From NCBI RefSeq assembly GCF_001758225.1, contig NZ_MAST01000053.1:62001-126000 (forward strand): a stretch of DNA of 64,000 nucleotides, read 5' to 3'. The position numbers and the translations under genes are program-made. This document shows, piece by piece, positions 23,072 to 60,878 of this stretch. Source of the DNA: Humibacillus sp. DSM 29435. GTDB lineage: Bacteria; Actinomycetota; Actinomycetes; Actinomycetales; Dermatophilaceae. The notes under the pieces were generated by a model. It ran no database searches, was not told the DNA's origin, and saw nothing but the letters and a program-made list of their open reading frames with translations. Numbering within the stretch: position 1 is the first letter of the stretch; each line of letters begins with the position of its first letter.

Positions 23072-23074
23072 GGT

Positions 23075-26815: not shown

Positions 26816-26914
26816 GGCAGCGAGGCCCGCCTTCCTGAGATGGTGGTGCTGCTGGCGTGGCTGCTCTCTCACCCTGGTCGAGCACAGCGACTATGAGAAG
26901 TGACTGTAGGTCGG

Positions 26915-44275: not shown

Positions 44276-44349
44276 CTGGCCACCCGTTGCTTGCACGGTT
44301 TGACCTCAGCGCGCTCATCGTCAGAACTGCGCCGGGGACGCAGAGTCCA

Positions 44350-44470
44350 GACGTGATCACACTGTACGATCCTGTCGGGCTGGGGCTTCAAGACTTGGCA
44401 ATCGGCGCGTCTGCTCTACGATTCAGCCCTTGACCTAGGAGTTGGAATGCGTGTCGCCCTCAGTGACTGA
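44350..44470 (+). pseudogene. Ornithine cyclodeaminase-family remnant, C-terminal part, opposite strand
   Basis: On the plus strand the sequence encodes DVITLYDPVGLGLQDLAIG and, after a one-base insertion relative to 58100-58231, the terminal VGMRV.LSD and stop. It continues the remnant on the minus strand (43985-44275) but in opposite orientation, so the ancestral gene has been broken by an inversion. Its 3' end supplies the AGGAG before the GntR gene. Confidence 0.82.
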
Positions 44471-45128
44471 ACCACCCGCTCCTCCCTCCATGTCCGAGCA
44501 CGCCTATCTGGGTATTCGTGAAGGCGTGATCTCGGGTCGATTCGGCCCAGGACAGCGACTGCGTGAACGTGACCTGTCAGTCGAGCTCAGCGTGTCCCGT
44601 ATCCCGGTGCGGGAGGCGCTCGGACGGTTGGAGGCCGAAGGATTCGTAGTGACCCGACCCCGACGGGGCGCACTCGTGCGGCAGCTCACGCTCAAGGATA
44701 TGGATGAGCTCTTCGACTTACGCCTAAGTCTCGAGGTGCTGGCCGCGAGGCAAGCAGCAACAAGGGTTATGGCGGGGGCGGATGTGGACGCGCTGAATGC
44801 TCAACTGCTCAACGCCGACGAAGCTACGATCAGCGGAGACGAACGAAGAATTCGTGAAGCCAACACTGCCCTGCACGCAGAGATTGTCACTTTGTCGGGT
44901 AACAGCATGTTGGCCGAGGTGATGGTACCTATTGTAGGTAGACTCATGTGGCTGTTTGCGCTCACAAAGGACAGGGACCCTGAAGAGCAGTGCCGGGAGC
45001 ATCACGGCCTTTGCAAGGCCATCCAGGAGGGAAACCCGGAACTCGCAGCTGCCCTCGCGTATTCCCATATAGAGCTCGGACGCGAACCGTCACTTCGTGC
45101 GCTAGGCGGCATCCTTCTCAGCGAATAG
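44451..45128 (+). CDS. GntR/FCD family transcriptional regulator, accessory region
   Basis: The product is 225 aa from GTG 44451 with AGGAG at 44437-44441; ATG 44490 is an alternative. The winged helix is HAYLGIREGVISGRFGPGQRLRERDLSVELSVSRIPVREALGRLEAEGFV, followed by an FCD domain with LHAEIVTLSGNSMLAEVMV and EHHGLCKAIQEGNPELA. Codon use is visibly less GC-rich than the flanking housekeeping genes. It may control the downstream transporter via the paired GTATAC sites at 47145-47174 (inference). Confidence 0.88.
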   Translation: MSPSVTEPPAPPSMSEHAYLGIREGVISGRFGPGQRLRERDLSVELSVSRIPVREALGRLEAEGFVVTRPRRGALVRQLTLKDMDELFDLRLSLEVLAARQAATRVMAGADVDALNAQLLNADEATISGDERRIREANTALHAEIVTLSGNSMLAEVMVPIVGRLMWLFALTKDRDPEEQCREHHGLCKAIQEGNPELAAALAYSHIELGREPSLRALGGILLSE

Positions 45129-45571
45129 CCAGGTTGGTCCCGGATCGGTCTTTCTAGCGGCGCTGCCTAAATTTCCGCCCACCCACGGCGTGGGTCGAAC
45201 GCACCCGCAACGGGTGGGGGACACAGCGGCGTGGGCGGTGGCGCAGTCCCCAGCCCGGAGCGTGCGAACGTACGGGTCGGGGACGACGAGCGGAGTTGCG
45301 CCCGGTGGCGGCGCAGAAGCGCTGTCTCGAGAATCGCCCTAACCCGCCAGAGCGACACGGGCACCGACAACCACCATCCTCGTGGCCGTGACAACAAGGC
45401 GCTCCATGAGCACATCATCGCCAAGGTGCTGCACGACGCGCCGCGAATCGGCTCGATCTGCGGCACGAGCGGGTGCTATTTCGTGGCCGCCGGCGAGAGG
45501 AGCATTGCCCCCGCTCGACGAGGATTTCTTGCTGTTCGCGGATCGCCAGGGGGGTCTGGCATTCTTCACGC
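45129..45571. other. Gene-free stretch after the GntR gene
   Basis: No convincing gene is present. A small palindrome ACCCACGGCGTGGGT occurs at about 45181-45195. A short frame near 45400 reads NKALHEHIIAKVLHDAPRIGSICGTSGC, which looks protein-like but has no start and is not recognised; it may be a remnant. Confidence 0.5.
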
Positions 45572-45985
45572 GTGGGACACAGTCTTGTTCGCGGGTCGCG
45601 ATTGACGACAGTGGTGATCGCTGTCGGGGTGCTGAGCGCCTGCAGCAGCCCGGGCGTCAAGCTACCCGATCGCGCCGATCACACGATCCAGCGCGAGGAG
45701 GCGCGGTTGGCCGCCGTCATCGGTGCTCAAACGCCCACCATCCTCGGAGCGCTCGGCACCTGTTCCGTGCGTCTCCTACGGCAGGACGCAACCGCGTCCT
45801 TTGTGTGGGCTGAGTGCGGCACAGGCCCTCCCATCAACTCCGGCGTCAGCGCCCCGATGCGAGTGATCGGATCCGATGTGACCGTCCCGCGCGATGGGAC
45901 TCAGTACACGAAGGACATCCACACCCTGTTCCCCGACGACCTCGCCGAGATCATCGAAGAGCAGGACGACACGATTCGCCCGTGA
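45572..45985 (+). CDS. Putative lipoprotein
   Basis: The product is 137 aa from GTG 45572. The N-terminus VGHSLVRGSRLTTVVIAVGVLSACSS has basic residues, a hydrophobic core and the lipobox LSAC. The mature part is acidic and ends TLFPDDLAEIIEEQDDTIRP; Cys in LGTCSVRLL and AECGTG could form a disulfide. No family is recognised. Orphan in the accessory region. Confidence 0.6.
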   Translation: MGHSLVRGSRLTTVVIAVGVLSACSSPGVKLPDRADHTIQREEARLAAVIGAQTPTILGALGTCSVRLLRQDATASFVWAECGTGPPINSGVSAPMRVIGSDVTVPRDGTQYTKDIHTLFPDDLAEIIEEQDDTIRP

Positions 45986-47144
45986 CACCGGGCTCTTCAC
46001 AATACAGGGTGCAGTCGGGGTCTGAATCCGCCGGTCTGGATCAGCGATCGCGACCTTCTTGGGCCGTGGCCGTCGTTGACCTTGAGAGAGGTCCGCTCTA
46101 ACGTCAGTGCTGTTCGGGCTGGAGCACGAGTTCGCCGCAACATCGGCGTGCACCACCGCGAGCTCGGCGTTCACCTCGACGGCCACCGCGTTCAACACGG
46201 TCAGGGCCTGAAGGACGCTCGGAGGCGTTGCTATCCCGCTCACCGGGAAGTTTGCAACGGCGCGCGCTGGCTGGGCGCCACAGAGTGCCGCGCCGGGCAC
46301 CGAGACCTCGCCCATCGAGTCAGGTTCGGTGAAGAACTCGGGCTGCCCGGAAGCTGTCTCGTCGTCAGTCTCAGCGTCCATCGTGCCCGCCTCGCCAGGG
46401 GGCAGCTGGACCGCTGGTATACATTTCGGGTCGGAAGAAGTGGGCAGGGACCAAGAAAGCCCCGCAGTTTCGGATGACGATGCGCTGAGGCTAGTACTCG
46501 CAAGCCAGGCCCAAGGGCTTCGCGCCGCCGTCGTACTCGAGCGGAGGGGGGCGATTCGCTGGGGCCGACTGGTGCCTGAGACAGGTTTCTGGTGCTCACC
46601 CTCGGGTGGTTCGAGGTGTCATGCTCACACCGTTCGCGAGACCGTGCTCAGTTGCAGGCAGGAAGGCGAATCGAGGACTTTCAGTGTCGCAGCGGGGCGG
46701 TCAGTGCCATCGTCCAGCGGAGGCCGTCGACCCTTCCCCATTTGAGAATGGTCCGCGGGCACTGGTGGTCCGAGGGGTAGCTCACGAGCGTAGAGCGACG
46801 CTGGCTCACGGTCACGGAGCGGCAGGTGCGGGCCGGCGATGCCGAATGTCTGCATCCGCGCCGATGTCGCCTTCGACTCCGGGTTGGTCACGGCACCAGG
46901 GATCGATCTGCTCGTTAGCCACCAACCCACTCGGGGACATCTGAGCACCTGCTCCGGGCTACCCACGATGGCAGGTGGGTCGAGGGCGACCTCGACCATC
47001 GCCCCAGTGAGACGGGCACCGCACGTCGCCGAAGTGCGCCTCGGACTCACTTTCGCAGGGCCGAAGTCAAAATCGATGTCGATGCGCGATCGCCCTCAGC
47101 TTGATTCCGATTCGGTAACGAACCCCGGTGACGCACGTCATCGG
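45986..47144. other. Gene-poor accessory stretch
   Basis: About 1.2 kb has only low-quality overlapping frames on both strands with mixed composition. A minus-strand frame at about 46380-46100 reads SVLQALTVLNAVAVEVNAELAVVHADVAA, faintly like a DUF222/HNH N-terminus, but no continuous gene follows. I read it as decayed sequence. Confidence 0.45.
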
Positions 47145-47174
47145 GTATACCAAACGAAAAATTCTTGTATACAG
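47145..47174. promoter_or_regulatory. Paired GTATAC palindromes upstream of the amino-acid ABC operon
   Basis: GTATAC occurs at 47145-47150 and again within TTGTATACAG at 47165-47174, centres 22 bases apart (two helical turns). They lie 60-90 bases before the binding-protein start. TTGTATACAA-like palindromes are classical FCD-GntR operators, which suggests control by the regulator at 44451-45128. Confidence 0.6.
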
Positions 47175-47233
47175 GACACCTGTTGCAGTCTTAGCGGCGT
47201 GACGTACCACGCCCCTCCTAGTAGAGGAACCAT

Positions 47234-48127
47234 ATGTCTCATCAACGCCTAGCCCTCATCGTCGCGGCGCTCGGTTCACTTCTCCTCACCTCGTGTGGTG
47301 CGGTCGTCCAGAAAGACGCTCCCGCCGCGGCCGGGGCGACCGCGACGTCGACGGCCAAGTTCCACGCCCTGCTGCCTGATGCGATCAAGACCAGTGGCAC
47401 GATCCGTGCCGCTTCCGGCGGCACGTACGCGCCCATGCACTACTTCGACATTGACGGAAAGACGATCATCGGGGTCGAGCGTGACCTCGCTGACGCCCTC
47501 GAGAAGCGCCTGGGCGTCAAGATCGAGCTCGTGTCGACGAACTTCGACGGCATCCTCGCCGGTCTGGAGGCCAACCGGTTCGACACGGCACTGGTCACGA
47601 TGGGCGACTACGAGAAGCGTCGCACCAAGATGGACTTCGTCGACTACGGGCAGACGGGTACGGGCATCAGCGTTGCCGGCGGGAACCCCCTGGGGATCAA
47701 GACCATGGATGACCTCTGCGGCAAGCGGGTCACCGCCGTTCGGGGCTACTCCTACGAAGCCGACCTCAAGGCGCAGTCGACCAAGTGCACCGAGGCGGGC
47801 AAGGCCGCCGTCAATGTGCTCGTGTTCACCGACGACGCCACGGCGAACAATGCGATCGTCACCGGTCGCAGCGACGCCCAGCTCGGAGATGCTGTCGTGA
47901 TCGCCTACGCCGCCCAGAAGTCAAAGGGCAAGGTTGTGATGCTCGAGCAGCAGCTGCAGCCCTCGGTCATCGGGATGCCGGTGCTGAAGACGAACCCCGC
48001 CCTGCGCGACGCCTTGCAGAAGGCTCTGCAGGATGTCATGGACTCTGGTGACTACCAGCCGATCTGGAAGAAGTGGAACCTGCCGTCGAGCGCAATCGAC
48101 AAGGCCATGATCAATGCCAACCCGTGA
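47234..48127 (+). CDS. Polar amino acid-type ABC substrate-binding lipoprotein
   Basis: The product is 297 aa. The signal is HQRLALIVAALGSLLLTSCG with lipobox LTSC. The mature chain follows SBP_bac_3: TSGTIRAASGGTYAPMHYFDIDGKTIIGVERDLADALEKRLGVKIELV, GKRVTAVRGYSYEADLK and TNPALRDALQKALQDVMDSGDYQPIWKKWN. It is extracytoplasmic. The downstream permease overlaps by 14 bases. The ligand is probably an amino acid or similar small zwitterion. Confidence 0.93.
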   Translation: MSHQRLALIVAALGSLLLTSCGAVVQKDAPAAAGATATSTAKFHALLPDAIKTSGTIRAASGGTYAPMHYFDIDGKTIIGVERDLADALEKRLGVKIELVSTNFDGILAGLEANRFDTALVTMGDYEKRRTKMDFVDYGQTGTGISVAGGNPLGIKTMDDLCGKRVTAVRGYSYEADLKAQSTKCTEAGKAAVNVLVFTDDATANNAIVTGRSDAQLGDAVVIAYAAQKSKGKVVMLEQQLQPSVIGMPVLKTNPALRDALQKALQDVMDSGDYQPIWKKWNLPSSAIDKAMINANP

Positions 48128-49049
48128 GTCTCAGGCTCCATCCCCGTCGCTGACGACCGGGATGGAGCCTGAGAACGCCATCCCGGTTCGGCACCCCGGT
48201 CGATGGGCCGCCGCTGTAGCGGTGGCCGTCATGTCGGCGATGCTCTGGAACGCCACCGTCAACAACCCGCGCATGGAGTGGGCGATTGTGGGGCAGTACC
48301 TCTTCGACCCGCAGATCCTGGCGGGGCTGCGGATGACACTGCTGCTCACCGTGCTCGCCATGGCCGTCGGGCTGGTGCTGGGCACGGTTGTGGCCGTCAT
48401 GCGCATGTCGGAGAACCCGCTCGTGCGCACTGCGGCCCAGCTCTACGTGTGGCTCTTTCGTAGCACCCCCCTGATCGTGCAGCTGCTCTTCTGGTTCTAC
48501 CTGGCTGCGGTCATGCCGACTCTCGGACTCGGCATCCCCTTCGGCCCGGAGTGGATCACCTTCGACACGAGTCTGCTGATCTCCCAGATCACGGCTGCGG
48601 TGCTCGGGCTCGGCCTCTGCGAGGCGGCCTACACGGCGGAGATCGTTCGCGCCGGCATCCTGAGTGTCTCGAAAGGACAGTTCGAGGCGGGGGAGGCCCT
48701 GGGTATGAGTCCCCGACGGGTGCTCGCCCGCATCGTGCTGCCCCAGGCCATGCGGGTCATCGTGCCGCCGATCGGCAACTCGACGATCAGCATGCTCAAG
48801 ACCACCGCACTGGTGCTCGTCATCGCGCTGCCCGACCTGTTGACGGCAGCTCAGGCCATCTACAGCCAGAACCTCGCTCAGATCCCGCTGCTGACGGTCG
48901 CTACTGCGTGGTACGTCTTCATCGTCACGGTACTGACGCTGGTGCAGAACCGCATCGAGAGGAAGTTCTCGGCCGGGGTCGCGGGAGTCACCCGAAGCAG
49001 GGTTCGGCGGCGCACCCTGACCGCCGCGCTGTCTGGAGGTTTCAGATGA
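48114..49049 (+). CDS. Polar amino acid-type ABC permease
   Basis: The product is 311 aa. After a variable N-terminus it has helices and the HisMQ-type core [51 protein letters not shown], and coupling loop [41 protein letters not shown]. It is a single permease gene, so it probably works as a homodimer. Its stop overlaps the ATPase start (ATGA). Confidence 0.92.
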
Positions 49050-49825
49050 GCGACACCGACACCGGCAACCACGCCGTGCGTCTCGAGGCAGTGCACAAGA
49101 GGTTCGGCGACGTTGAGGTGCTGCGCGGCGTCGACCTGACCATCTCGCGGGGCAGCGTCGCCTGCGTGATCGGCCCCTCCGGCTCCGGCAAGAGCACTCT
49201 GTTGCGATGCATCAACCAGCTCGAGACGATCCAACGCGGTCGGCTCTGGGTCGGGGGCGAGCTGGTCGGCGTGCGCGAACGGCAGGGCCGCCTCTACCGG
49301 CTCCCCCCGAAGCTCGTCGCGCGACAGCGGCTGCGATGCGGGATGGTCTTCCAGAACTTCAACCTGTTCGCCCACATGACCGCACTCGAGAACGTCATGG
49401 AGGCTCCGGTCGGCGTCAAGAAGGTGCCGAAGACCGAGGCCCTCGCCCTGTCGCGTGACCTCCTGGGCAAGGTCGGCCTGGCCAAGCACGCCGACAAGTA
49501 CCCCTCCCAGCTCTCTGGTGGTCAGCAGCAACGCGTGGCCATCGCCAGGGCCTTGGCCATGTCGCCCGAGATCATGCTGTTCGACGAGCCGACCAGTGCC
49601 CTCGATCCCGAGCTGGTGGGGGAGGTGCTGGAAGTCATGAGGGCCCTCGCGGCCGACGGCATGACAATGGTGGTCGTCACGCATGAGATCGGCTTCGCGC
49701 GAGATGTCGCCGACACTGTGCACTTCATGGACGAAGGGGTCGTCGTCGAGGAGGGCCCCGCGCGGTCGCTGCTCGCTGATCCGCGTCACCAGCGCACCAA
49801 GACGTTCCTCTCTCACTTGCGCTGA
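49046..49825 (+). CDS. Polar amino acid-type ABC transporter ATPase
   Basis: The product is 259 aa from ATG 49046. Walker A is [12 protein letters not shown], the Q-loop segment is [23 protein letters not shown], signature [15 protein letters not shown], Walker [15 protein letters not shown] and H-loop [12 protein letters not shown]. It matches GlnQ/HisP-type ATPases. A 15-residue extra loop ([22 protein letters not shown]) lies between Walker A and the Q-loop. Third gene of the operon. Confidence 0.94.
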
Positions 49826-49867
49826 CCTTGAACCCCACCCGAACAGGAACACGAAGGCGGACACACC

Positions 49868-51115
49868 GTGCACGACATTGATCTCATCAGGGGCGCCCGG
49901 CTCTGGAGCCGACACCCCGACGAGCCTCTCGTAGACGTGAAGATCGTCGACGGGCGCATCGGCGGCATATCCCCCACTGCTGCGCAGGCTGCCCCACCGG
50001 CTTCGGGTCTGGTCTGCCTCGAGGCGGGTGGGCGAGTGCTGGTGCCGAGCCTGGCCGCCGTGCACGAGCATTTCGACTCGAGCGGTCTGGGTGCCGCTTT
50101 TCGACCCCACACGGCCGGTGACAGCCTTGAAGAGCTGATCGCCGACTCACGAGGGGTGTGGCGAGAGTCTTCGGTGCCGCTCATCGACCGGGTGCGTATC
50201 GCCGCCGTGCGCACCATCGCCTCTGGTGCCACGGCGATCCGGTCACACGTACAGATCGACACCGAGTGCCGCCTGGAGCGATTCGAGGCCATGGCTACGG
50301 TGCGTGACGAGCTGGCCGGGGTGGTCTCGTTCGAGATCGTGGCCTTCCCCCAGTGCGGCTACCTCCAGGACCCCGGCAGTGAGCAGCTGGTCGACGAAGC
50401 GCTCGCCGCTGGAGCCGACCTGGTCGGCGGTATCGACCCCTGTGGGCTTGAGCGAGACGCCAGAGCGCACCTCGATATCGTCTTCGGCCTGGCCCAGAAG
50501 CACCACGTCGGAGTTGACCTGCACCTGCACGAGCGCGGACCACTCGGAGAGTTCACGCTCGAGCTGGTGTGTGACCGGGTGACAGCGCTCGGTATGCAGG
50601 GGCTGGTCACCATCTCTCACGCCTTCGCCCTCGCCACCCTCGAACCCCGACCGCTCCAGCGACTGCTCGGCCGGTTGGCCGAAGCGGACATCGCGGTCAC
50701 GACGATTGCCCCGATGGAGACGGCGCCGCTCCCGCACGCGCTGCTGCGCGAGACCGGCATCCGCTGCGGTCTGGGTCAGGACGGCATGCGGGACGGGTGG
50801 TCGCCGTGGGGCGACGGTGACCTGTTGCGACGCACGCGGCAGCTGGCCCTGCGCTCGGCTTGGTCCCACGATGAGGACATCGAGCTCGCCGTTGACATTG
50901 CGACGCGCGGCGGGCGCGCTGTACTGGACGCGAGCCAACGACCTCGAGTGGCCATGACCGAGGATGCGGTATCCGGTCTGGCCGTGGGCGCGCCGGCAGA
51001 CCTGCTGCTCGTCGAGGGCACCACGGTCACCGAGGCGCTTATGGACTGTGGGCCACAGCGCACTGTCGTTCGCCGTGGCGTGGTGGTAGCCGACGGAGGT
51101 CGTGTGCTGCTCTGA
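49868..51115 (+). CDS. Cytosine deaminase-like amidohydrolase
   Basis: The product is 415 aa from GTG 49868. The metal sites follow the CodA-type pattern: VHEHFD (His66/His68), GVDLHLHERG, ISHAFAL and GQDGMRDGWSPWGDGDLL, which matches the GxDxxxDxWxPxGxGDxL element of cytosine/creatinine/isoguanine-type deaminases. The C-terminal beta sandwich GAPADLLLVEG is typical. It lies 42 bases after an ABC transporter operon. The likely substrate is an aminated N-heterocycle; which one is unknown. Confidence 0.85.
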   Translation: MHDIDLIRGARLWSRHPDEPLVDVKIVDGRIGGISPTAAQAAPPASGLVCLEAGGRVLVPSLAAVHEHFDSSGLGAAFRPHTAGDSLEELIADSRGVWRESSVPLIDRVRIAAVRTIASGATAIRSHVQIDTECRLERFEAMATVRDELAGVVSFEIVAFPQCGYLQDPGSEQLVDEALAAGADLVGGIDPCGLERDARAHLDIVFGLAQKHHVGVDLHLHERGPLGEFTLELVCDRVTALGMQGLVTISHAFALATLEPRPLQRLLGRLAEADIAVTTIAPMETAPLPHALLRETGIRCGLGQDGMRDGWSPWGDGDLLRRTRQLALRSAWSHDEDIELAVDIATRGGRAVLDASQRPRVAMTEDAVSGLAVGAPADLLLVEGTTVTEALMDCGPQRTVVRRGVVVADGGRVLL

Positions 51116-51134
51116 GGCGAGGTGACTCTGATCG

Positions 51135-51269
51135 TCAGCCGAGGTAAAAGTCGACGGCGCCTGCTCCGCAGTTTGAACTTCGGCCGCGGAGCGAATCGTC
51201 CGGAAGCACAAGCAGGGCGAGCCAGACGACGGCGACGCTGATCCAGCGCTCGCGGGGGAGCGTGCTCAC
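51135..51269 (-). CDS. Short hypothetical protein (possible remnant)
   Basis: The frame encodes about 44 aa from GTG 51269 with a hydrophobic segment WISVAVVWLALLVL. It overlaps the previous frame as GTGA, which is an argument for a real operon, but it is short and unrecognised. It may be part of decayed DNA next to the transposase relics. Confidence 0.25.
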   Translation of the reverse strand: MSTLPRERWISVAVVWLALLVLPDDSLRGRSSNCGAGAVDFYLG

Positions 51270-51469
51270 GGAGCAGCTGCAGCGCGCAGAGCAGCTGCAT
51301 GTCTGGGGGTGATGAACTGGATCAGCCCCAACGTCACGAACGCGATGCGGCGGCCGGCCGGCGCGAAACACAGCAGCTGGAGCGCCGTGTCCGGAAGGAC
51401 TTCTCGGGCGGGGACAGCCGGTGGTAGGACCCCGATGACGACGGCTCTCTCGGCGTTGGCGGCCTGCAC
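51266..51469 (-). CDS. 5'-truncated hypothetical protein
   Basis: The frame reads AANAERAVVIGVLPPAVPAREVLPDTALQLLCFAPAGRRIAFVTLGLIQFITPRH and is open back to a TAG near 51543, where it continues as DQEDTGNYQYTADRARRTLEGIAVQ without a good start. The sequence looks protein-like. No family recognised. I read it as a remnant whose beginning is lost. Confidence 0.3.
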   Translation of the reverse strand: MQAANAERAVVIGVLPPAVPAREVLPDTALQLLCFAPAGRRIAFVTLGLIQFITPRHAAALRAAAAP

Positions 51470-51599
51470 GGCGATGCCCTCGAGCGTGCGCCGGGCCCGG
51501 TCGGCCGTGTACTGGTAGTTGCCGGTGTCTTCCTGATCTCGCTAGTGGGCCCAGCCGACCGAGGCTAGGTGAAGACGCGCTCGTCGGGCAGGTCCAAGC

Positions 51600-51932
51600 G
51601 TTCGTGAGCCTTTGGCCCGGGCCGTGGTCACGTACGGCTCCTGGGGATGCCGCCGTTCGCGAAGATCGTGACGTCGAGGGGCCCGGGGGCGGTCGTGAAC
51701 CAGCGGAGCAGGGGATCAACGTGAGCGTCTCTCGTCTTGTTCCCCTCGAACTCCTCAAGCATCAGCACAAACCCCGAATGGTCGGTCAGCAAACCGATTT
51801 GCATGGTCGGCGCCCACGGCCGAGATCCATTGTTGGGAAACGTCCTTCGCGTGCACCGGCAGCCGCCGCTTGATCTCAGGGTAGGCCGGCGCCAGTAGGC
51901 CCGACTCTTCCAGCACCGTAATCGGGTCGAGC
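51600..51932 (-). pseudogene. Possible transposase relic
   Basis: Minus-strand frames read LLTDHSGFVLMLEEFEGNKTRDAHVDPLLRWFTT and then VTIFANGGIPRS, faintly like the central region of IS1634/IS4-type transposases (FEGN... followed by a D-containing strand). It has frameshifts and no start. Low confidence; a profile search would decide. Confidence 0.25.
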
Positions 51933-52824
51933 TCAGTTCGATGACCGCGCCAGCACCAGCGCCCTGAACACGGCGTCACGGGCTCTCCGCACTTGGGCGG
52001 GGCGGTACCTGATTTCATGCTCTTCTCTGCCTTGGGGTGAGGCGATGTGGACCATGATGCGCCCTGGGTAGCTGTCCATGTTGGTGAGTTCACAGCCGAC
52101 CCGCTTGGTCTGTTTGATGATCCGGTTGAAGCCCTCGGTGCGCGCGTTGGTGTCGTCGGTGAGCGCGACGAGCACGGCCGGCCAGAACGTCTCGATCGGG
52201 AACGCGAGGCGGGTGGTCTCGTCCATCTCGGCCCTGCTTGGGGGTGAGGTGCTGGTAGCCGGTCAGCAACAGGTCCGGGAGGCCCAGACCCTGTCGGAGG
52301 AGACACCGCGGCGGCCGTGGAGCCGCCGACTGTTCCGCTGCCGGACCTGGGTGAGCATCAGGTTCGCGACGGCGCTCAGGTGCCACTTGTCGACTGCTGT
52401 CCGCGCACCCGGTAGGGCGGGCCGCGTACGGGTCGATCACGACCAGCTCGACACCATCACGGAACGCCGGGGTCTGAGGCGCCAGCCACGAGCTCACGCA
52501 GGCGCCGGAGCGTCCCGGCTTGAGCCCGAGCCGCCGCTTCTGGCGCGGCCGGGTCGTGTTCACGAACGACGTCATCCACGGGTCTGAGCGTCTCCACCCC
52601 GCCTCATCGAGGACCCAGCGCACCGACCGGGCGCCACCCGGTACTCGGTGGCGACCTCGCTGACCGCGCAGTTGCCCGACGCGATCGCGGAACCGATCTT
52701 CTCCCGCGGCCGGGTCGTGAGCCGCGACCGTGCGGGTCGCGGGCACACCAGGCGCCGCGCTCACCCCACACTCAAGTCCCAAGAGCCCGTAAAGGACGAA
52801 GAGCCCGTTGGCCAGCACTTTCAC
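51933..52824 (-). pseudogene. Decayed ISL3-family transposase
   Basis: Minus-strand frames carry LGLECGVS near the N-terminus, SVRWVLDEAGWRRSDPWMTSFVNT, FRDGVELVVIDPYAA and then the diagnostic ISL3 segment VALTDDTNARTEGFNRIIKQTKRVGC in a different frame. Several frameshifts prevent a functional product. The element ends near the long inverted repeat at 52841-52883. It confirms past transposition in this accessory stretch. Confidence 0.8.
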
Positions 52825-52840
52825 CTTCGCACACCGAGCA

Positions 52841-52883
52841 GCCCGTATCGTTCACATGTCGTCGACACGTGAACGATACGGGC
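52841..52883. repeat. 43-base near-perfect palindrome at the ISL3 relic end
   Basis: Left arm 52841-52861 and right arm 52863-52883 pair over 21 positions with one mismatch around a single central base. Arms begin GCCCGTATCGTTCAC and end GTGAACGATACGGGC. It borders the relic, so it may be the head-to-head fusion of two terminal repeats, or a transcription terminator. Confidence 0.85.
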
Positions 52884-52957
52884 TTGGACTCGACTACAAC
52901 TCTAAGACTCGCCCCGATGAATTCTGCAGGCGTCCGTTCGAGATGAGTGGACTGCGT

Positions 52958-53419
52958 TCAACCGGCGGAGTAGCGCTGCCATAGATGGGCGTTGTTTTCG
53001 CGAAACTCTGAGACCATGGATATGCAGGCGGGGTCGTTGGCCACTAGTACATCCGCCCCCTCTCGTCGGAGCCAGTCGAGCGCTCCCGAATAGTGGGTGT
53101 CTTCACCGATGACAAAACGACGGACTCCAGTGATGAATGCGGCGCCCGCGCACATTGGGCAAGGCGACTCGGTGGCAACGAGGGTCACCTTCGTCGGCGG
53201 AGTGTCGTTTTCGTCGAGGTATGCGCGAAGGGCTTCTGTCTCCGCGTGAGCGAAGTAGTCGCCTCTCTGAACTTGGCGGTTTCGTCCACGAGCGACGACT
53301 CGGCCTGCGACCACGAGTGAGGCGCCGAATGGCATACCTCCTTCCGCTATGCCCGCCTGTGCTTCCTCGAGCGCATCTGAGAGGCCAGGGTTGCTCCCGA
53401 GCGTGACCGGATCTCTCAT
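52958..53419 (-). CDS. Nucleobase deaminase of the cytosine/guanine deaminase zinc family
   Basis: The product is 153 aa. The zinc site is DYFAHAETEAL (His58-Ala-Glu60) and TESPCPMCAGA (Cys87, Cys90). GGMPFGASLVVAGRVVARGRN is typical of the cytosine-deaminase (yeast FCY1)/GuaD subgroup. Its start overlaps the NCS1 permease stop (ATGA), so it is co-transcribed with a nucleobase importer. It would hydrolyse an amino group from the imported base. Exact base unknown. Confidence 0.9.
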   Translation of the reverse strand: MRDPVTLGSNPGLSDALEEAQAGIAEGGMPFGASLVVAGRVVARGRNRQVQRGDYFAHAETEALRAYLDENDTPPTKVTLVATESPCPMCAGAAFITGVRRFVIGEDTHYSGALDWLRREGADVLVANDPACISMVSEFRENNAHLWQRYSAG

Positions 53420-54936
53420 CGTGGAGCCGCCTGCATTTGTGAGTCTGTCCGATTCAGATCAGTTGCAGGTTCAACGGCTCTGGCAGGGCGCCTGTTCAGA
53501 AGCAGGTAGAAGATGATGCCGAAGGCGCACCCGAAGTACCACGAGAAGGCAGCCAGGTTGTGAAGGACGGGAAGCTGGGCGATGAGGGTCGAGAGCGTTC
53601 CTGCCGCGACGAGTGCCACGATTGCTCGTGGGTTGAAACCGCGACGGTACCAGTACTTTCCTCGTGGATCGTCGCTGAAGAGGTGCTCAATATCGATCTC
53701 CTGTCGGCGGAGAAAGAAGTAGTCCACTACGACGATGCCGAAGATGGGGCCGATGAAAGCCCCTAGGGTGCCTAGAGTGTATTGGACCATCTCTGGGTTC
53801 GAGTAGAGGTTCCAGGGTGTCACGGCGACCGAAGCAAGCGAGGCAACTATGCCGGCGCGCCGGAAGCTGAGCACTCTCGGAGCCAGGTTCGCGAGATCCA
53901 TTGCGCTGGAGACGAAGTTGGCGACGATGTTCGTAGCAATGGTGGCAGTCATGAACGTCAGTGCGCCGAGAAGCACAGCAGTTGTGTTATCTATGCGGGC
54001 AACCAGCTCAACTGGATCAGTGATGAGTTCGCCGAATACTTTGAGGCCTCCGGACGTGGTCACGACAGCTGCAAAGGCGAACAAGGTGAAGTTGATGGGT
54101 AGCCCCAGGAAGTTGGCGCGCCGCATGGCTGTTGGGGATTTCAAGAAGCGAGCAAAGTCCGCAAAGTTGAGCGTGGTGCCAGCGAACCATGCCGTCGTGA
54201 AGGCTACTGCAGTGAACCACATCCCAACGGCCGCGGAGTTGGAGAGTGTTTCAGAGTGAAGAGTGAAGCTGATCTCGCTGAAGCCACCTGCTTTCCAGAC
54301 GATCCAGCCCGCGAGCAGGAACATAATTACGTAGATTGCCGGGCCCGCCCAGTCGGTGAACCGGCGGATGGCCTCCCATCCGTAGAAGAAGACCAGCAAC
54401 TGCGCAAACCACATGAAGGCGAAGCAAACCCAGCCGAGTGTCGACAATCCTAGGATTGAGTTCTTGGCCAGGGGTGTTAGATCCGGGAAGAAGCGCAGGA
54501 CAACGACGACTAGGGCAGTAGACGCGACCCATGTCTGGATCCCGTACCAAACGGTGGCAGTGGCTGCCTTGATCATGCTCGGGATGTTGGCCCCAAATAC
54601 TCCGAAGCTTGCCCGGCAGAATGCGGCGAAGGCAATTCCGTACTTCTGGCCGGCAGTTCCCGCGAGGTTCGTAAAGAAGTAGATGAGCGTAATCCCGACC
54701 AGCAACGCTGAGAATACTTGCCAGCCGGCAAGTCCGAGTGTGAAAAGACTCGCCGCAAAAACGTAACCTGCCACGCTGTGGACGTTCGACATCCACATTG
54801 CAAAGAGGTTGTAGATCCCCCAGGTCTGGTTGGTCACAGGCTGGATGTCAGGGTTAGACAACCGAGGGCTTACGGCCAAAGGTCCGGGCGGCCGGGCCGA
54901 GCCGTTGGGCTCAAGGTCAGAGGGTGATACACCCAT
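53416..54936 (-). CDS. NCS1-family nucleobase/allantoin-type permease
   Basis: The product is 506 aa from ATG 54936, which is a weak ribosome-binding site; longer starts have low-complexity N-termini. Twelve hydrophobic segments follow the conserved NCS1 opening SNPDIQPVTNQTWGIYNLFAMWMSNVHSVAGYVFAASLF, FRASFGVFGANIPSMIKAATATVWYGIQTW and later NIVANFVSSAMDLANLAPR. NCS1 carriers import cytosine, uracil, allantoin, hydantoins and related bases by proton or sodium symport. It is coupled to a deaminase. Codon use is AT-richer than the core. Confidence 0.92.
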   Translation of the reverse strand: MGVSPSDLEPNGSARPPGPLAVSPRLSNPDIQPVTNQTWGIYNLFAMWMSNVHSVAGYVFAASLFTLGLAGWQVFSALLVGITLIYFFTNLAGTAGQKYGIAFAAFCRASFGVFGANIPSMIKAATATVWYGIQTWVASTALVVVVLRFFPDLTPLAKNSILGLSTLGWVCFAFMWFAQLLVFFYGWEAIRRFTDWAGPAIYVIMFLLAGWIVWKAGGFSEISFTLHSETLSNSAAVGMWFTAVAFTTAWFAGTTLNFADFARFLKSPTAMRRANFLGLPINFTLFAFAAVVTTSGGLKVFGELITDPVELVARIDNTTAVLLGALTFMTATIATNIVANFVSSAMDLANLAPRVLSFRRAGIVASLASVAVTPWNLYSNPEMVQYTLGTLGAFIGPIFGIVVVDYFFLRRQEIDIEHLFSDDPRGKYWYRRGFNPRAIVALVAAGTLSTLIAQLPVLHNLAAFSWYFGCAFGIIFYLLLNRRPARAVEPATDLNRTDSQMQAAPR

Positions 54937-55769
54937 GGGTATTTTTCCAATCGTGTCCAGCGCGCTGCGTTGAGCGCTGATGAATGGTGCTCGGGGGTGG
55001 TCCTGGGTTGTGGACCCGCCAGCGGTTTCCACGATGTGGAAACGGCCTTTCGTTTCGGTAGCGTTGCACGGGCCACCGAGAAGGACAAGCTCGTCTCGCA
55101 GCCGTGCTCGACAACGAGCTCGGGACCCCCACCCATCAGGGGCGCTGCGTGAGCGAGTGGGCCGGGGCCATGGCGGAGGCGGTTCGTAGACTCGCAAGGC
55201 GGCGGCGTCTTGGTAGACCAGGGTAAGCCTGACCGAATATTGACACGCTCAACTGTGGCGTTTCGTACGGGCTTCGGGATAGTCTGGTATCCAGGATCGC
55301 CAGGGTCTGGTGTGTGCCCGGATGTGAGGATGCCTCGTGAGCCAGTGTCTGCCGAGTCACGAGTCAGTGCTCGAGCTCCACTTTCCGATAGCCGCAGTTG
55401 CGCCGTCGGTGCCTGGTCGGCCGCCACGGACAGCCGCAACGCAGGACGGCGTGCAGATCGGCCTCGGCGAGCACGGTCAGCGTGACTACGCGTCGCCACA
55501 CGGCCATACCGACATGCTGGACCGCACCTGGCAGCTGGCGTTCACCAACGAATTCCGCCGCAATGAACTGATCGAGCACGGCCGCGCCGCTACCGCCATC
55601 GGGGGTCCGGCTGTGCTGGAGCCCGCCGGCCGTCGCCTGCGCGGGACCGCCCATCGACGGGGTCTTGAGATCCGCGACCCGGCTGAGCTGCTCCTCGTCG
55701 ACGGCGAAACGAGGGGGCTGGAGTTGCTGTCCACACCATGACGACACCAAAAGGCGGGGGGGACAAAAA
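54937..55769. other. Intergenic stretch between divergent NCS1 permease and chlorohydrolase genes
   Basis: About 830 bases have no convincing gene. It includes the palindrome at 55025-55043. A frame at 55337-55741 (plus strand) reads DRTWQLAFTNEFRRNELIEHGRAATAIGG, not recognised and without good codon or start support. A TTGACA hexamer at about 55248 could be a -35 element. Confidence 0.5.
55025..55043. promoter_or_regulatory. GTTTCCAC-N3-GTGGAAAC operator candidate
   Basis: Perfect 8-base arms (55025-55032 and 55036-55043) about the central GAT, 89 bases upstream of the NCS1 permease start. Symmetric TTCCAC/GTGGAA repeats are typical of IclR-family regulators, which often govern ureide and nucleobase catabolism. 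No IclR gene lies in this window. Confidence 0.6.
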
Positions 55770-57248
55770 GTGAGGACTCAGGTCACGGCCAAGTACCTGT
55801 TGGGCCACCAGGACGGGCGGCACCAGCTGCTCAGAGACGCCAGTGTGGTGTTTGAGGGCGACACGGTCGTTTACGTGGGGACCCGGCTTGACGGCCCCGT
55901 GGACGAGCACCTCGACCTGGGGGAGTCACTCATCCTGCCCGGGCTCATCGATCTCGACGCCTTGTGCGACATCGACCATGTCATCCTCGACTCCTGGGCT
56001 GACCCCGACACCGAGAGCGGTCTGCAGTGGTCCGAGGACTATTTCCGGACGCGGCGTCATGATGTCTTCTCGGTCGAAGAGCGCGCCCAAGTGCGCGAGT
56101 ACGCACTCGTGCAGCTGGCCTTGCACGGGATCACCACATTCATGCCGATCTCCGCCGAGACGCACAGTCAGTGGGCGGAGTCGTACGAGGAAGCCGTGTC
56201 CATCGCCGAGCAGGCGAGCCGGCTCGGGCTGCGCGGCTTTGTGGGTCCGGCCTTCCGCAGTGGTGTGAACGTGGTCCACGACGATGGTGCCCGCGACGTG
56301 CTTTTCGAGGAGCAGCAGGGCGAGAGAGGTCTGGAGGAGGCCCTGCGCTTCCTCGACTGGGCGCAAAGTCGACATGACCCGCTCCTCACAGGAGTGTTGC
56401 TGCCCTGCCGAATCGAGACCATGACGCGGGCCCTCCTCGAGTCGGTTGCGACGCAGGCCCGAGATCGTGGCGTCCTGGTGCGGTTGCACGCCTTGCAGGG
56501 CCTGTTCGAGCGCGAGCTCATCTTGGCGAAGCACGGAATGACACCCTTGGAGCTCATCAAGGAGGTGGGCCTGCTCGGCCCGACGACGTTGATTCCGCAT
56601 GCGATATTCACCGACCGTGACCCGCAGGTACATGGTGAAGACCGAGGGGACCTCGCACTTCTTGCCGACGCTGGGGTGACGGTCATCCACTGTCCACTCA
56701 CGTCACTGCGATACGGCTCCGTGCTGCATTCCTTCCGCGCGTACCGCCAGGCCGGGGTGAACCTGGCTTTGGGCACGGACTCGTTTCCGCCAGATCTGGT
56801 GCGCGGGATGGACGTCGGTGTGCATCTAGCCAAGTACGTCGATGGCCGCCAGGATGCCGCTCCGGTGGAGTGGTACGTCGAGGCGGCCACGCTGGGCGGA
56901 GCCCGGGCGCTGGGCCGGGCGGACCTTGGTCGGCTTGCGCCGGGGGCGCAGGCCGACCTGGTTGCCTTCTCGTTGAACGACATCCGCGACGGTGTCGTCG
57001 ATGACCCCATCCGGACACTCTTGCTCAACGGTGCGGCGCGACAGGTCACGCATTCCTTCGTGGCGGGGCGGGCCGTAGTAGTCGATGGTCGTATTCCAGG
57101 AGTCGACCTTGAGGCCTTGCGGCACAGCGGGCAGCGCCTTTTCGAGAAGATGAGGGCCGCCTACAGCGAACGTGACCACCGGGGCAGGTCGGTTGACCAG
57201 CTGTTCCCGCCAGCGTTCCCCCCGCTGAGCTCGGCGGTGACACGTTGA
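55770..57248 (+). CDS. Chlorohydrolase/TRZ-type amidohydrolase with altered first metal motif
   Basis: The product is 492 aa from GTG 55770 (GGGGGGGA upstream). Amidohydrolase-like features are YVGTRLDGPVDEHLDLGESLILPGLIDLDALCDIDHVI, where a canonical PGxxxxHxH would be expected but DLDALCDIDH appears instead. Later LHALQGLFERELILAKHGMTPL, LIPHAIFTDRDP, LALGTDSFPPDLVRGM and GADLGRLAPGAQADLVAFSL follow. It therefore resembles a subgroup of chlorohydrolase proteins lacking the paired N-terminal His. Overlaps the OCD start. Confidence 0.8.
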   Translation: MRTQVTAKYLLGHQDGRHQLLRDASVVFEGDTVVYVGTRLDGPVDEHLDLGESLILPGLIDLDALCDIDHVILDSWADPDTESGLQWSEDYFRTRRHDVFSVEERAQVREYALVQLALHGITTFMPISAETHSQWAESYEEAVSIAEQASRLGLRGFVGPAFRSGVNVVHDDGARDVLFEEQQGERGLEEALRFLDWAQSRHDPLLTGVLLPCRIETMTRALLESVATQARDRGVLVRLHALQGLFERELILAKHGMTPLELIKEVGLLGPTTLIPHAIFTDRDPQVHGEDRGDLALLADAGVTVIHCPLTSLRYGSVLHSFRAYRQAGVNLALGTDSFPPDLVRGMDVGVHLAKYVDGRQDAAPVEWYVEAATLGGARALGRADLGRLAPGAQADLVAFSLNDIRDGVVDDPIRTLLLNGAARQVTHSFVAGRAVVVDGRIPGVDLEALRHSGQRLFEKMRAAYSERDHRGRSVDQLFPPAFPPLSSAVTR

Positions 57249-58231
57249 CGCTGCTCTTGACGCGGTCGGACCTGACCGCCCTGACCGACATGGCTACCAC
57301 CATCGAGGCGGTTCAGCGTGCCATGGCTGACCTCGAACGCAATCACGCCCGTCAGCCCACTCCCCAGGGGATGACTGATCCCGGCAGCGACGGAGTTTTC
57401 CTCCCGATGGCCGCCCTCTCGCGCCCGTCCGGCCTTGCCTGCGTCAAACTGCTCGCGGACCTGCCCGGTAACTCCGCACGTGGGCTGCCCGGGCAGCGTT
57501 CCACGCTGATGCTCGCAGATGTCGAGACAGGGGAGACGCTCGCGATCCTTGACGGGATGGTGCCCACCCGGGTGCGTACCGCGGCGACGTCGGCCGTCGC
57601 AACTCGACACCTGGCGGCGCCAGACGCGCGAAGCCTCGGGCTCATCGGCGCGGGGGCGCTCGCGGTGGCGCACGTCGAAGCCCTGTCCCACGTGATGCCC
57701 CTCGAAGAAGTGATGTTCTGGACCCGCAGTGAGCGTTCCGCGGTGAGGTTCCGCGAAGCGGTCGCCGGTTTCGGGGTCAGAGCAATGGGGCTCACTTCGC
57801 CACAGGAGGTGGTTGAGCGCGCAGAGGTGGTCTGCACGCTGACGCCGTCGGTCGAGCCGCTAGTCCGGGGGGCGTGGCTGCATTCAGGTCAGCACCTCAA
57901 CGTGGTGGGCGCACGGCCTAGGCCGGACCATCGAGAGGTCGACGCTGAGACGATGGTGCGATCCAGTGTCTTCGTCGACAGCCTGCCTACCGCACTGGCG
58001 AAGTCGGGCGACTTGCTCGGTGCCATCAAGGAGGGCGCCCTGGGGCCGGGCTACGCGCCTGTCGAACTTGGGGCAGTGATCATCGAATCCGCCCCGGGCA
58101 GGCAGTACCCATCCGAGATCACCCTGTACGACTCTGTGGGGTTGGGGCTGCAAGACCTGGCCATTGGACGTCTGCTGTACGACGCGGCCCTCGACCAAGG
58201 AGTTGGACTGCGGGTCGACCTCAGTGCCTGA
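57245..58231 (+). CDS. Ornithine cyclodeaminase/mu-crystallin family protein
   Basis: The product is 328 aa from TTG 57245, overlapping the chlorohydrolase stop as TTGA. NAD-binding is SLGLIGAGALAVAHVEALSHV (about 137-157) and the substrate region has KLLADLPGNSARGLPGQRSTLMLADVETGETLAILDG, LVRGAWLHSGQHLNVVGARP and GLGLQDLAIGRLLYDAALDQG. Family members catalyse NAD-dependent deamination-cyclisation, imine reduction, ectoine or alanine dehydrogenation. The exact reaction is unknown. A second, broken copy lies at 43985-44470. Confidence 0.88.
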   Translation: MTLLLTRSDLTALTDMATTIEAVQRAMADLERNHARQPTPQGMTDPGSDGVFLPMAALSRPSGLACVKLLADLPGNSARGLPGQRSTLMLADVETGETLAILDGMVPTRVRTAATSAVATRHLAAPDARSLGLIGAGALAVAHVEALSHVMPLEEVMFWTRSERSAVRFREAVAGFGVRAMGLTSPQEVVERAEVVCTLTPSVEPLVRGAWLHSGQHLNVVGARPRPDHREVDAETMVRSSVFVDSLPTALAKSGDLLGAIKEGALGPGYAPVELGAVIIESAPGRQYPSEITLYDSVGLGLQDLAIGRLLYDAALDQGVGLRVDLSA

Positions 58232-58582
58232 ACTCTCCTTTTCAGCCTCCATGGTCGAGCGCGTCTCCGGGGACCTTCTCGGCGCAGGATGACCGGCGCT
58301 GCCTCTGCGGTGGTGCAATGGGGTCATGACCGATCAGGCGCCTGTGGATCGTTCCTGGCCTGGTGTTTGCTGCCCGAGGTGCTGGCACGTGGGCCGGCGG
58401 TGCAGGTGAGCCAGCCGGGTTACTGCCCCGACCCGCGCGGGTGACGTTCAGCCCGGACAGCCGCCGGCTCGGGCCGGGTGAGGTCGGGGAGCTCGCGCGC
58501 TGGTGCACCGTCATCCCGCTGCCGAGCGCCCGACCCTCGCCGCGGGTTTGCGACGGTTCGACGGCTGCGGACACTACTGGTT
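58232..58582. other. Gene-free stretch between OCD and ECF genes
   Basis: About 350 bases, GC-rich, with no convincing frame or repeat. It probably marks the right-hand end of the accessory region and carries the ECF promoter; no clear -35/-10 is readable. Confidence 0.5.
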
Positions 58583-59179
58583 ATGCGCAGCGTGATTGAC
58601 GTCTCGGCGGAGGAGGGCCTGCTCGAGCAGGTGACCCGAAACGACCGGGATGCGTTCGGCGCGTTGTACGACCGGCACGTGGGGGCGGTGTTCGCGCACT
58701 GCGCCCGACAGCTGGGCACCATTCAGGACGCCGATGACCTGACGGCGATCGTGTTCCTCGAGGCGTGGCGGTCGCGGTACCGGATCCGGGCCGTGAACGG
58801 TTCGGTGCTGCCGTGGCTGTTGGTGACGGCCACCAACGTGGCCCGAAACTACCGCCGCTCCGCCCGTCGGTACCGGGCCGCGCTGGCCCGGATTCCGGCG
58901 CCGCGGGCCAGCCCCGACCACGCCGAGGATGTCGCGGCCGCGGCCACCTTCGAGCAGACCGGGCGGGCGTTGGCGCAGGCGCTCTCGGATCTGCGTCCGA
59001 TGGACCGCCAGGTCGTGTCGCTGTGCCTGATCGCCGAGCTGAGCTACGCGGAAGCGGCCCAGGCACTGGGGATCAGTCACGCCGCCGTCCGCTCGCGGCT
59101 CATGCGATCGCGGGAGAGCGTCAAAGCAGCCCTGCTCGAGGCAGGAATCACCAGCTCGCAGGAAGGACCACCGTCATGA
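58583..59179 (+). CDS. ECF-type RNA polymerase sigma factor
   Basis: The product is 198 aa from ATG 58583. Region 2 reads FGALYDRHVGAVFAHCARQLGTIQDADDLTAIVFLEAWRSR, and region 4 reads LRPMDRQVVSLCLIAELSYAEAAQALGISHAAVRSRLMRSRESVK. The last 12 residues extend beyond region 4. It overlaps the following membrane protein gene (ATGA), a typical layout for ECF sigma/anti-sigma pairs. Confidence 0.92.
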   Translation: MRSVIDVSAEEGLLEQVTRNDRDAFGALYDRHVGAVFAHCARQLGTIQDADDLTAIVFLEAWRSRYRIRAVNGSVLPWLLVTATNVARNYRRSARRYRAALARIPAPRASPDHAEDVAAAATFEQTGRALAQALSDLRPMDRQVVSLCLIAELSYAEAAQALGISHAAVRSRLMRSRESVKAALLEAGITSSQEGPPS

Positions 59180-59673
59180 CCAGCACCGGACCGTCCGCGC
59201 CTCGGATGAGCGCCGACCGAACCAGGCAGCTGCGGGCGGCCATCATGGCTGAGACCCGCATCAGTAACGGCCGCGGCCGGCGGCCGTTGGCGGTCGCGGC
59301 GGTCGCGACGACGAGCGTGCTCGTCGTCGGCGGCACCGCCGCGGCGTGGGTCGCGGTGTCGCGGCCCGATGACCCCAACAACGCGTACTGCTCTTCGGAA
59401 GCGAGCACGGACCGGGACGTGTGGGCTCTGCACGGGGTCGGAACTGCGGTCAACGCCGACACGGGTAAGCAGGACCGCCTGAACGCGCTCGAGGTCTGCG
59501 CGGGGCTGTGGCGCGCCGGGGTCGTGCATGAGCCTGGAGCGCGGCCCAGCCCGTCGGGCACCTACCGGGTGCCGGGCCTGGTGGCGTGTGTGGTCGACGA
59601 CCAGCTCGTGATCTACCCCGGCGGGCCCGGAGTCTGCGGGCAGCTGAAGGTTCCGGCGGCGGAACCCAACTGA
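59176..59673 (+). CDS. Single-pass membrane protein, probable ECF partner
   Basis: The product is 165 aa. About 40 cytoplasmic residues, rich in Arg (PRMSADRTRQLRAAIMAETRI), precede one helix (RPLAVAAVATTSVLVVGGTAAAWVAV, about 35-60) and an outside domain with YCSSEASTDRDVW, CAGLW and CGQLKV. No zinc-binding HxxxCxxC anti-sigma motif is present. Its overlap with the sigma gene suggests a regulatory role, either anti-sigma or sensor; this is inference. Confidence 0.75.
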   Translation: MTSTGPSAPRMSADRTRQLRAAIMAETRISNGRGRRPLAVAAVATTSVLVVGGTAAAWVAVSRPDDPNNAYCSSEASTDRDVWALHGVGTAVNADTGKQDRLNALEVCAGLWRAGVVHEPGARPSPSGTYRVPGLVACVVDDQLVIYPGGPGVCGQLKVPAAEPN

Positions 59674-59676
59674 GCC

Positions 59677-59716
59677 GGTGTGGGGGTGCCGCACACGGGG
59701 TCGGCATCCCCACACC
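59677..59716. terminator. Bidirectional hairpin between convergent genes
   Basis: Arms 59677-59691 and 59702-59716 (15 bases each, one mismatch) pair between the sigma-partner gene and the convergent secreted protein. A second stem (CACCACCA/TGGTGGTG) lies at about 59728-59756. Confidence 0.65.
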
Positions 59717-59761
59717 ACCCAGCCCCGACCACCACCAGCGGTGCTTGTCGTGGTGGTGTCG

Positions 59762-60328
59762 CTAGTTGAACTGGATCGAAGAGGTGCGGTCGTTGATGGC
59801 GCCGCCGACGTAGGCGCTGCTCCCGGCGTAGCCGTACGAGATTCCGCTGAAGGTGTTGTCCCACAGCTTGGTGGCGCAGCGGCCGTACGAGGTGAACGAG
59901 GAGATGCGGTCGTTCCACCCCGCCGGCATCACCGCCACCTGGAAGTCCACGTCCGGGTTGGTGTCACAGTCCGAGCTGCCGGTGAACGTGTAGGTGCCGC
60001 CCGAGGCGGCGTGGCCGGCGTCCGCGTAGACGGTGGCCAACACGTATGTCCCACTGCCCGCACTGGCGCCGTGGGTAGTGCGGGCGGGTTGGGCGATCTC
60101 GGCTCGTTCCTGATCGGTCACGGTGGCCGCACTCGCGCCCAGTCTGACGCGGTCACCGCTGAGGTCGGAGATCACCTCAGCAAAGCTGCGGTGGCAGACG
60201 TGGGCGCCGGTGCTCACGTTGAGCCAGCAGTGTGCACCGCCCTGCGCGGCCTGGGCGGGCGAGCCGCCCACGGCCGATACCGCTGCCGCCAGCAACACGG
60301 CCGCTGCTGTCTTGAGTACCTTTTTCAT
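59762..60328 (-). CDS. Secreted I36/beta-gamma-crystallin-like protein
   Basis: The product is 188 aa from ATG 60328. The signal peptide MKKVLKTAAAVLLAAAVSAVGGSPAQAA precedes a mature domain with HVCHRSFAEVISDLSGDRVRL, SDCDTNPDVDFQVAVMPAGWNDRISSFTSYGRCATKLWDN. The WNDRISS(F)xxxxxC segment is characteristic of I36-type protease inhibitors and crystallin folds. Four Cys probably form two disulfides. Acts outside the cell. Confidence 0.75.
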   Translation of the reverse strand: MKKVLKTAAAVLLAAAVSAVGGSPAQAAQGGAHCWLNVSTGAHVCHRSFAEVISDLSGDRVRLGASAATVTDQERAEIAQPARTTHGASAGSGTYVLATVYADAGHAASGGTYTFTGSSDCDTNPDVDFQVAVMPAGWNDRISSFTSYGRCATKLWDNTFSGISYGYAGSSAYVGGAINDRTSSIQFN

Positions 60329-60683
60329 GATCTCTGATCCCCTTTCCCGCAGCACGATGCTGCGGGCCCGCGTCTTCTCTGGACCGTCACCCCGGTCTTG
60401 TCCCGAGCTCTTGAGTGCTCGCCGGATGTGGTCGAGATGCTCTCAAGGTAACCCGAACGCCCACGACGCACCCCGGGCAGTGACGACCTGAACACCACCG
60501 TCCGGGGAAGGCGGCGCCTCATGCGAGTCGGTGGGCGGCGTGGTGCCCTCTCGCTCTGCTGCCTGAGCGGCGTCCGACCGACCCTGACGATGGAGGTCTC
60601 ACACACGGCCGAAACCGTGTCCGTGCGTGGGAGACGTCGACCGCTGTGCGCCCTTCAGAGCAGTTCGACGAGCTCGCGGTAGG
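60329..60683. other. Gene-free stretch upstream of the secreted protein
   Basis: About 350 bases contain no convincing frame. It should carry the promoter of the secreted protein. A short distance before 60684 no SDR-like coding continues, so the SDR tail is truncated there. Confidence 0.5.
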
Positions 60684-60800
60684 GGTCGAGACGCTTTCCC
60701 CGAGGAGATCGCCGCCGCCTTCCTGTTCCTGCGCTCCAACGTCTCGGACATGATCAACGGTGCGGACCCGCTGGTCGACGGGGGGCACGCGATCCGCTGA
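60684..60800 (+). pseudogene. Orphan C-terminus of an SDR gene
   Basis: The frame encodes DAFPEEIAAAFLFLRSNVSDMINGADPLVDGGHAIR and a stop, the exact ending of classical SDR enzymes (EEIAxAxLFLxS ... ING...VDGG). No Rossmann or catalytic part is present upstream, so this is a decayed remnant. It is not the SDR at 27102. Confidence 0.8.
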
Positions 60801-60878
60801 GGGCGGTCGAGTCGGGTTTCGTCCGTCGGATGCCGGGCAGCTGCTCAGAGCGGGGAGCCAAGCGATAGCGTCAGTTCC

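Follow-up and report, generated by a model that had tools for sequence, protein, structure and literature searches.

What does the run of amidohydrolase, deaminase and permease genes on contig NZ_MAST01000053.1 of the actinobacterium Humibacillus sp. DSM 29435 encode, and do its members belong to one pathway? We addressed this question in the window, a 64,000-nucleotide stretch of that contig (positions 62,001 to 126,000, forward strand; assembly GCF_001758225.1), whose own coordinates are used below. A preliminary description of these genes had proposed a heterocycle catabolic set in which sequential deamination and hydrolysis end in a cyclic imine or amino acid, and profile searches of the window proteins recovered all the gene families that it named. 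Three of them are central here: an AtzC/cytosine-deaminase-like amidohydrolase (CDA), a 'chlorohydrolase' of NCBIfam family PRK06151 (CHL) and a cyclodeaminase-family protein (OCD). Our comparisons suggest that the set is probably a module for the catabolism of a small nitrogen-ring compound (a nucleobase, ureide or related molecule), that it is horizontally variable and that in this genome it is broken and partly replaced. The locus also contains elements absent from the preliminary description, namely an FCD-type GntR regulator, a CDA relic, OCD relics, an ISL3-like relic and a tRNA-Val gene.

Recurrence of the CDA-CHL module

We compared the module across ~45 relatives, and a scan of species-representative genomes carrying CHL gave 30 named loci (designated by L numbers below). 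At 19 of these, CDA and CHL are no more than 10 kb apart; of the 11 remaining genomes, 10 have a CDA at another place. The baseline, taken from an even sample of the class at a looser limit of 1e-50, is 9 of 197 other genomes; setting 12 of 13 against these 9 of 197 gives a Fisher p of ~3e-13, with kinship ignored and with 2 of the 13 having CDA beside CHL. FCD-type GntR genes are present at 17 of the 30 named loci, including three of a second subtype, and OCD is a member of the module in only part of the loci. Among close relatives the module is sparse, the PRK06151 cut-off being exceeded in 3 of 395 class genomes.

The genes CHL-OCD-GntR-CDA are contiguous and in the same order in Arthrobacter sp. 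ISL-28 (L034) and in a member of the window organism's own family (L059). On alphaproteobacterial plasmids, GntR, an Opp-type ATP-binding cassette (ABC) transporter, CDA and CHL occur together, often with a flavin reductase, in frames that abut or overlap; GntR-Opp-CDA-CHL arrangements are found on plasmids of Marinovum, Sulfitobacter, Leisingera, Paroceanicella and Alloyangia. The module, which has been sequenced many times already, occurs widely among soil and marine bacteria as well as on plasmids, and the CDA-CHL association spans phyla despite the kinship among Arthrobacter and Amycolatopsis loci. Because the module recurs across relatives and on alphaproteobacterial plasmids, its serving a common ring-nitrogen pathway is well supported by gene content. 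What stands of the proposed heterocycle gene set is the joint recurrence of CDA, CHL and GntR in many genomes of at least two phyla; the window's particular assortment as a single inherited pathway is not supported.

The type of transporter is swapped between lineages: Opp-type ABC systems, a sugar-type ABC in Micromonospora and, in Amycolatopsis loci, a sodium:solute-symporter-like protein (family assigned from sequence only). A DUF3100 membrane protein is divergently adjacent to CHL in 11 of the 30 named loci and in L059 and L062 (the full set being L028, L029, L032-L034, L038-L040, L044, L046, L048, L059 and L062), and is likely a transporter of the module's compound. The literature searched yielded nothing useful on DUF3100 or on these operon gene combinations, and the module gives this membrane family its first functional context. 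Micromonospora loci carry an AtzD/barbiturase-family ring opener between CDA and CHL, together with an Asp/Glu/hydantoin racemase, and have allantoinase and allantoicase among their neighbors. Allantoinase- or allantoicase-like genes are also near CHL in L036, L043, L033 and L045, in S. meliloti (allB) and in Defluviimonas. In Paroceanicella and Alloyangia the last gene of the run encodes a nucleoside deaminase, and an NCS1 transporter adjoins the module in Leisingera. The simplest common reading of these neighbors would be a nucleobase- or ureide-type compound with ring nitrogen.

CHL, CDA and OCD

CHL scores 622 bits against PRK06151 (NF004801, 'chlorohydrolase family protein'), well above the cut-off of 416. 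The family name rests on similarity, and we found no description of the function of this family or of the CDA-CHL module in the literature searched. The AlphaFold model of CHL (pLDDT, predicted local distance difference test, 92.1) has the fold of the ATZ/TRZ-type amidohydrolase superfamily. Its superpositions on adenosine deaminases, on TrzN and on Vcz, an isocytosine deaminase, score Z 40-43 (Z 42.6 and 2.2 Å over 420 residues for the adenosine deaminase 4dyk_A), although these Foldseek and VIA-align matches indicate a common fold and not function. The best neighbors of CHL in both sequence and fold are the 8-oxoguanine/isocytosine deaminases (3hpa; Vcz 7ww2/8is4) and adenosine deaminase 4dyk.

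The HxH histidines are the residues that bind the metal in cytosine deaminase and related enzymes (PMC6186785). This motif, expected where the first barrel strand ends in ATZ/TRZ-type amidohydrolases, is missing from CHL, a state recognized here from alignments. Whereas the neighboring deaminases have equivalents of His62, His64 and Glu218 (PMC6186785), CHL has Asp, Leu and Gln, the last of these replacing the deaminase catalytic Glu of the fifth strand. At least 28 of 29 aligned members of the CHL clade, and 11 alphaproteobacterial relatives, have DLDA in place of HxH; the Rhodococcus JS3073 protein has DLNA at this position. The remaining ligands, His240 (β5), His277 (β6) and Asp337 (β8), are invariant in the alignment and, with Gln243 and Glu247, stay so even when an HxH-bearing sister group is included. 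The sister-group proteins (L060, L063 and L064; 31-34% identity to CHL) keep HxH, share the Gln and have no CDA nearby. Since the members of the CHL clade are all without HxH and the sister group retains it, the alignments indicate that the loss is clade-wide and old and that the residue pattern is under constraint.

An ordinary chlorohydrolase identity for CHL is not supported, the metal motif of chlorohydrolases and deaminases with the same fold being missing. Because HxH and the catalytic Glu are replaced in every CHL relative examined in this clade, 'chlorohydrolase' (CHL) and 'ornithine cyclodeaminase' (OCD) are unsafe names, and we suggest that the annotation word 'chlorohydrolase' would hide a nitrogen-source or pollutant route. 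We propose, with some reserve, that the PRK06151 clade may be an enzyme family that abandoned HxH and Glu and has been conserved between Actinobacteria and Alphaproteobacteria because it acts on a ring-nitrogen compound alongside an AtzC-like deaminase; either its metal site would be non-standard or its reaction would not be hydrolytic deamination. The parts themselves are from known families; what is unexpected for a specialist is an HxH-less clade within a conserved operon, and CHL is a test case for an amidohydrolase fold operating without the usual metal motif.

The best solved relatives of CDA are AtzC-type structures (6nbo, 1.4e-68; 2qt3, 6e-38). CDA is like the AtzC/6nbo group in its fold family, its four metal ligands and its conserved Phe/Gln, His and Trp positions, and the AtzC zinc ligands His60, His62, His217 and Asp303 are aligned and conserved in it (HEH, HLH and D). 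It is unlike AtzC in having Ser and Gly in place of Lys65 and Asn304, the AtzC substrate residues (PMC4577212), and judged by these residues it should therefore not be named isopropylammelide hydrolase. Its score against the NCBIfam amidohydrolase PRK05985 is 384 bits, below the cut-off of 408. The best solved relative of OCD is the pyrroline-2-carboxylate reductase 6t3e (2.4e-56), and the ketimine/pyrroline-2-carboxylate reductases are its nearest group, but OCD falls below their equivalog cut-offs. It misses every NCBIfam equivalog cut-off, the best being ketimine reductase (215 of 322 bits), and the best cyclodeaminase equivalogs reach 205 of 417 and 160 of 408 bits. Reduction of an imine by OCD is plausible from these relationships, and cyclodeamination is not supported; the earlier idea that the pathway ends in a cyclic imine is conjectural.

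In the scheme that we envisage, the FCD-GntR protein would control expression and a transporter would import the compound, this being the PAAT-type ABC and/or NCS1 system here and an Opp-type ABC, sugar-type ABC, symporter or DUF3100 protein elsewhere. CDA, its mononuclear metal site intact, would hydrolyze an exocyclic C-N bond, and CHL would perform the accompanying step, either on the same intermediate as CDA or on the one after it, with a remodeled metal site made up of Asp63 (replacing the first His), His240, His277 and Asp337. Where present, OCD would reduce an imine or imino-acid product.

The segment beside tRNA-Val

In Humibacillus sp. DSM 29435 the gene set is a species-specific insert beside tRNA-Val, since homology to the sister species breaks off at 43821, at the end of tRNA-Val(CAC), and is picked up again at 60861. 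The sister species has ~6.5 kb of other DNA in place of the 17.0-kb segment. A synteny break at the tRNA 3' end combined with absence from the sister genome is the arrangement of a tRNA-anchored island; a search for a repeat of the tRNA end yielded no attachment-site pair, its last 20 bases not recurring in the stretch examined, and none of the segment's scanned genes encodes an integrase. The features, with protein families assigned by profile search where indicated, are as follows.

43746-43822, +: tRNA-Val (CAC); synteny with the sister species breaks at its 3' end
43823-60860: species-specific segment of 17.0 kb containing the entire gene set (comparison with the sister species)
44013-44266, -: OCD relic, residues ~190-276, in two frames
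44284-44464, +: OCD relic, residues ~268-327, in two frames, immediately 5' of GntR
44490-45128, +: FCD-type GntR regulator, relatives of which adjoin CHL/OCD/CDA in other genomes (profile search)
47234-48127, +: ABC transporter solute-binding lipoprotein, SBP_bac_3 (profile search)
48114-49049, +: ABC transporter permease, polar amino acid type (profile search)
49046-49825, +: ABC transporter ATPase (profile search)
49868-51115, +: CDA, all metal ligands present (profile search, alignment)
~51750-52830 (approximate limits), -: ISL3-like transposase relic, frame-broken
52958-53419, -: nucleobase deaminase of dCMP/cytosine-deaminase fold (profile search)
53416-54936, -: NCS1-family permease, nucleobase/allantoin-type (profile search)
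55361-55711, +: second CDA, surviving as a relic of 117 C-terminal codons in which His replaces the metal Asp
55770-57248, +: CHL, PRK06151-family, amidohydrolase fold, DLDA where HxH is expected
57245-58231, +: OCD/mu-crystallin-family NAD(P)-dependent protein (profile search)

CHL starts with GTG, ~10 bases 3' of the purine-rich stretch GGCGGGGGGG, and OCD starts with a TTG overlapping the CHL stop. The segment also encodes an extracytoplasmic function (ECF)-type sigma factor (58478-59179), for which 59 further genomes of the family contain no close relative at E <= 1e-30.

The CDA gene at 49868-51115 is the sole intact copy in the genome. The CDA relic between NCS1 and CHL is 63% identical to an Arthrobacter protein (L029), and the two OCD relics left of GntR comprise one that is inverted and one in the OCD-GntR order of L034 and L059. 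The ISL3-like relic lies between CDA and the deaminase. GC content at third codon positions (GC3) is below that of the window's genes for NCS1 (z -3.2, GC3 0.698), the deaminase (z -4.4) and GntR (z -4.5); CDA, CHL and OCD are within 1.6 standard deviations, and the ABC genes are typical. The original CDA of this genome may be the relic 5' of CHL, with the divergent CDA beside the ABC genes as a possible substitute, and the foreign-looking NCS1/deaminase pair would occupy the place of the relatives' divergent DUF3100 gene. No DUF3100 gene is present in the organism's own genome.

The NCS1 permease is assigned to its family by Pfam; its nearest NCBIfam equivalog model is the allantoin permease (PRK11375 group), against which it scores 297 bits and does not reach the cut-off of 620. 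The closest solved structure to the nucleobase deaminase is yeast cytosine deaminase. Actinobacterial CHL loci hold no close relatives of this pair, and its composition differs, so its place in one inherited pathway is not sustained. The amino-acid ABC transporter of the preliminary description is present (polar amino acid type, 47234-49825, + strand), just left of the interval that it had covered. Its inclusion in one inherited pathway is also not supported, as a complete PAAT-type ABC resembling the window's is seen only at L063, beside an HxH-bearing sister-group protein. The view of the NCS1 and deaminase genes as mere passengers is softened by the nucleoside deaminase and NCS1 genes found beside CHL in Rhodobacterales. 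That nucleoside deaminase is of another subfamily than the window's (36-38% identity over part), and the Rhodobacterales NCS1 is not close to the window's (28.6% identity, tblastn).

Several considerations detract from a functional ring-nitrogen module as we propose it. Many loci come from related Arthrobacter and Amycolatopsis, so that the counts are inflated and not independent, and the changing ABC type among lineages points to no one substrate class. A CHL metal site using Asp63 is an alignment-based deduction and the most economical guess; CHL is without HxH and the deaminase Glu, and its reaction may therefore not be hydrolysis. The local set may itself lack function, given that the window gene order departs from the conserved one and that its intact CDA shares only ~45% identity with the CHL-linked clade. 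In an alternative that we consider rather doubtful, the segment is the wreck of a formerly functional module plus unrelated arrivals accumulated by gene flux beside the tRNA, and no longer one pathway here. The CDA, OCD and ISL3 relics, the low GC3 of NCS1, deaminase and GntR, the sister species without the segment and the actinobacterial CHL loci without close NCS1/deaminase relatives all speak for such decay. However, the GntR, CDA, CHL and OCD frames are still open, the CDA ligands are kept, and the recurrence of a nucleoside deaminase and NCS1 by CHL in Rhodobacterales is consistent with a functional link.

It is very unlikely that CHL is an inactive partner or regulator of CDA and not an enzyme. 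The loss of HxH and the catalytic Glu throughout the clade, and CDA/CHL frames that abut or overlap in Rhodobacterales, would fit such a role, but the five residues listed above are invariant even relative to the HxH-bearing sister group, and in several Arthrobacter CHL stands apart from CDA. A lower s-triazine pathway, with CHL as AtzB, CDA as AtzC and an AtzD-type ring opener, is scarcely credible here, even though the best solved relatives of CDA are AtzC-type, the CHL fold resembles TrzN, and Micromonospora has an AtzD/barbiturase-family gene between CDA and CHL. It is weakened by the missing HxH, by the Ser/Gly at AtzC Lys65/Asn304 (PMC4577212) and by the absent AtzD neighbor: AtzB, AtzC and AtzD do not occur together, there being no AtzD-family gene in the segment, and the genome's single AtzD-family protein is encoded elsewhere, on contig C51, with barbiturase as its nearest match (9e-195). 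No biuret or allophanate hydrolase was recognized among the scanned genes of the segment.

Other loci in the genome and window

The barbiturase-like ring-opening amidohydrolase on contig C51 (131174-132253, L065; 9e-195 to PDB 5hwe) adjoins, as judged by eye, an apparent carbamate kinase gene and hydantoinase/oxoprolinase-type genes, and this locus is probably an oxidative pyrimidine route. Within the window, positions 17196-26872 hold a second FCD-GntR gene, an Opp-type ABC transporter, two GFO/IDH/MocA oxidoreductases and a D-2-hydroxyacid dehydrogenase; the Opp ATPases are ~42-44% identical to those near CHL in Arthrobacter. At 33609-37282, a fusion of an alpha/beta hydrolase with an AMP-binding domain is encoded beside an ACP synthase III-like protein, genes that we take to resemble those of long-chain olefin (OleBC/OleA) biosynthesis.

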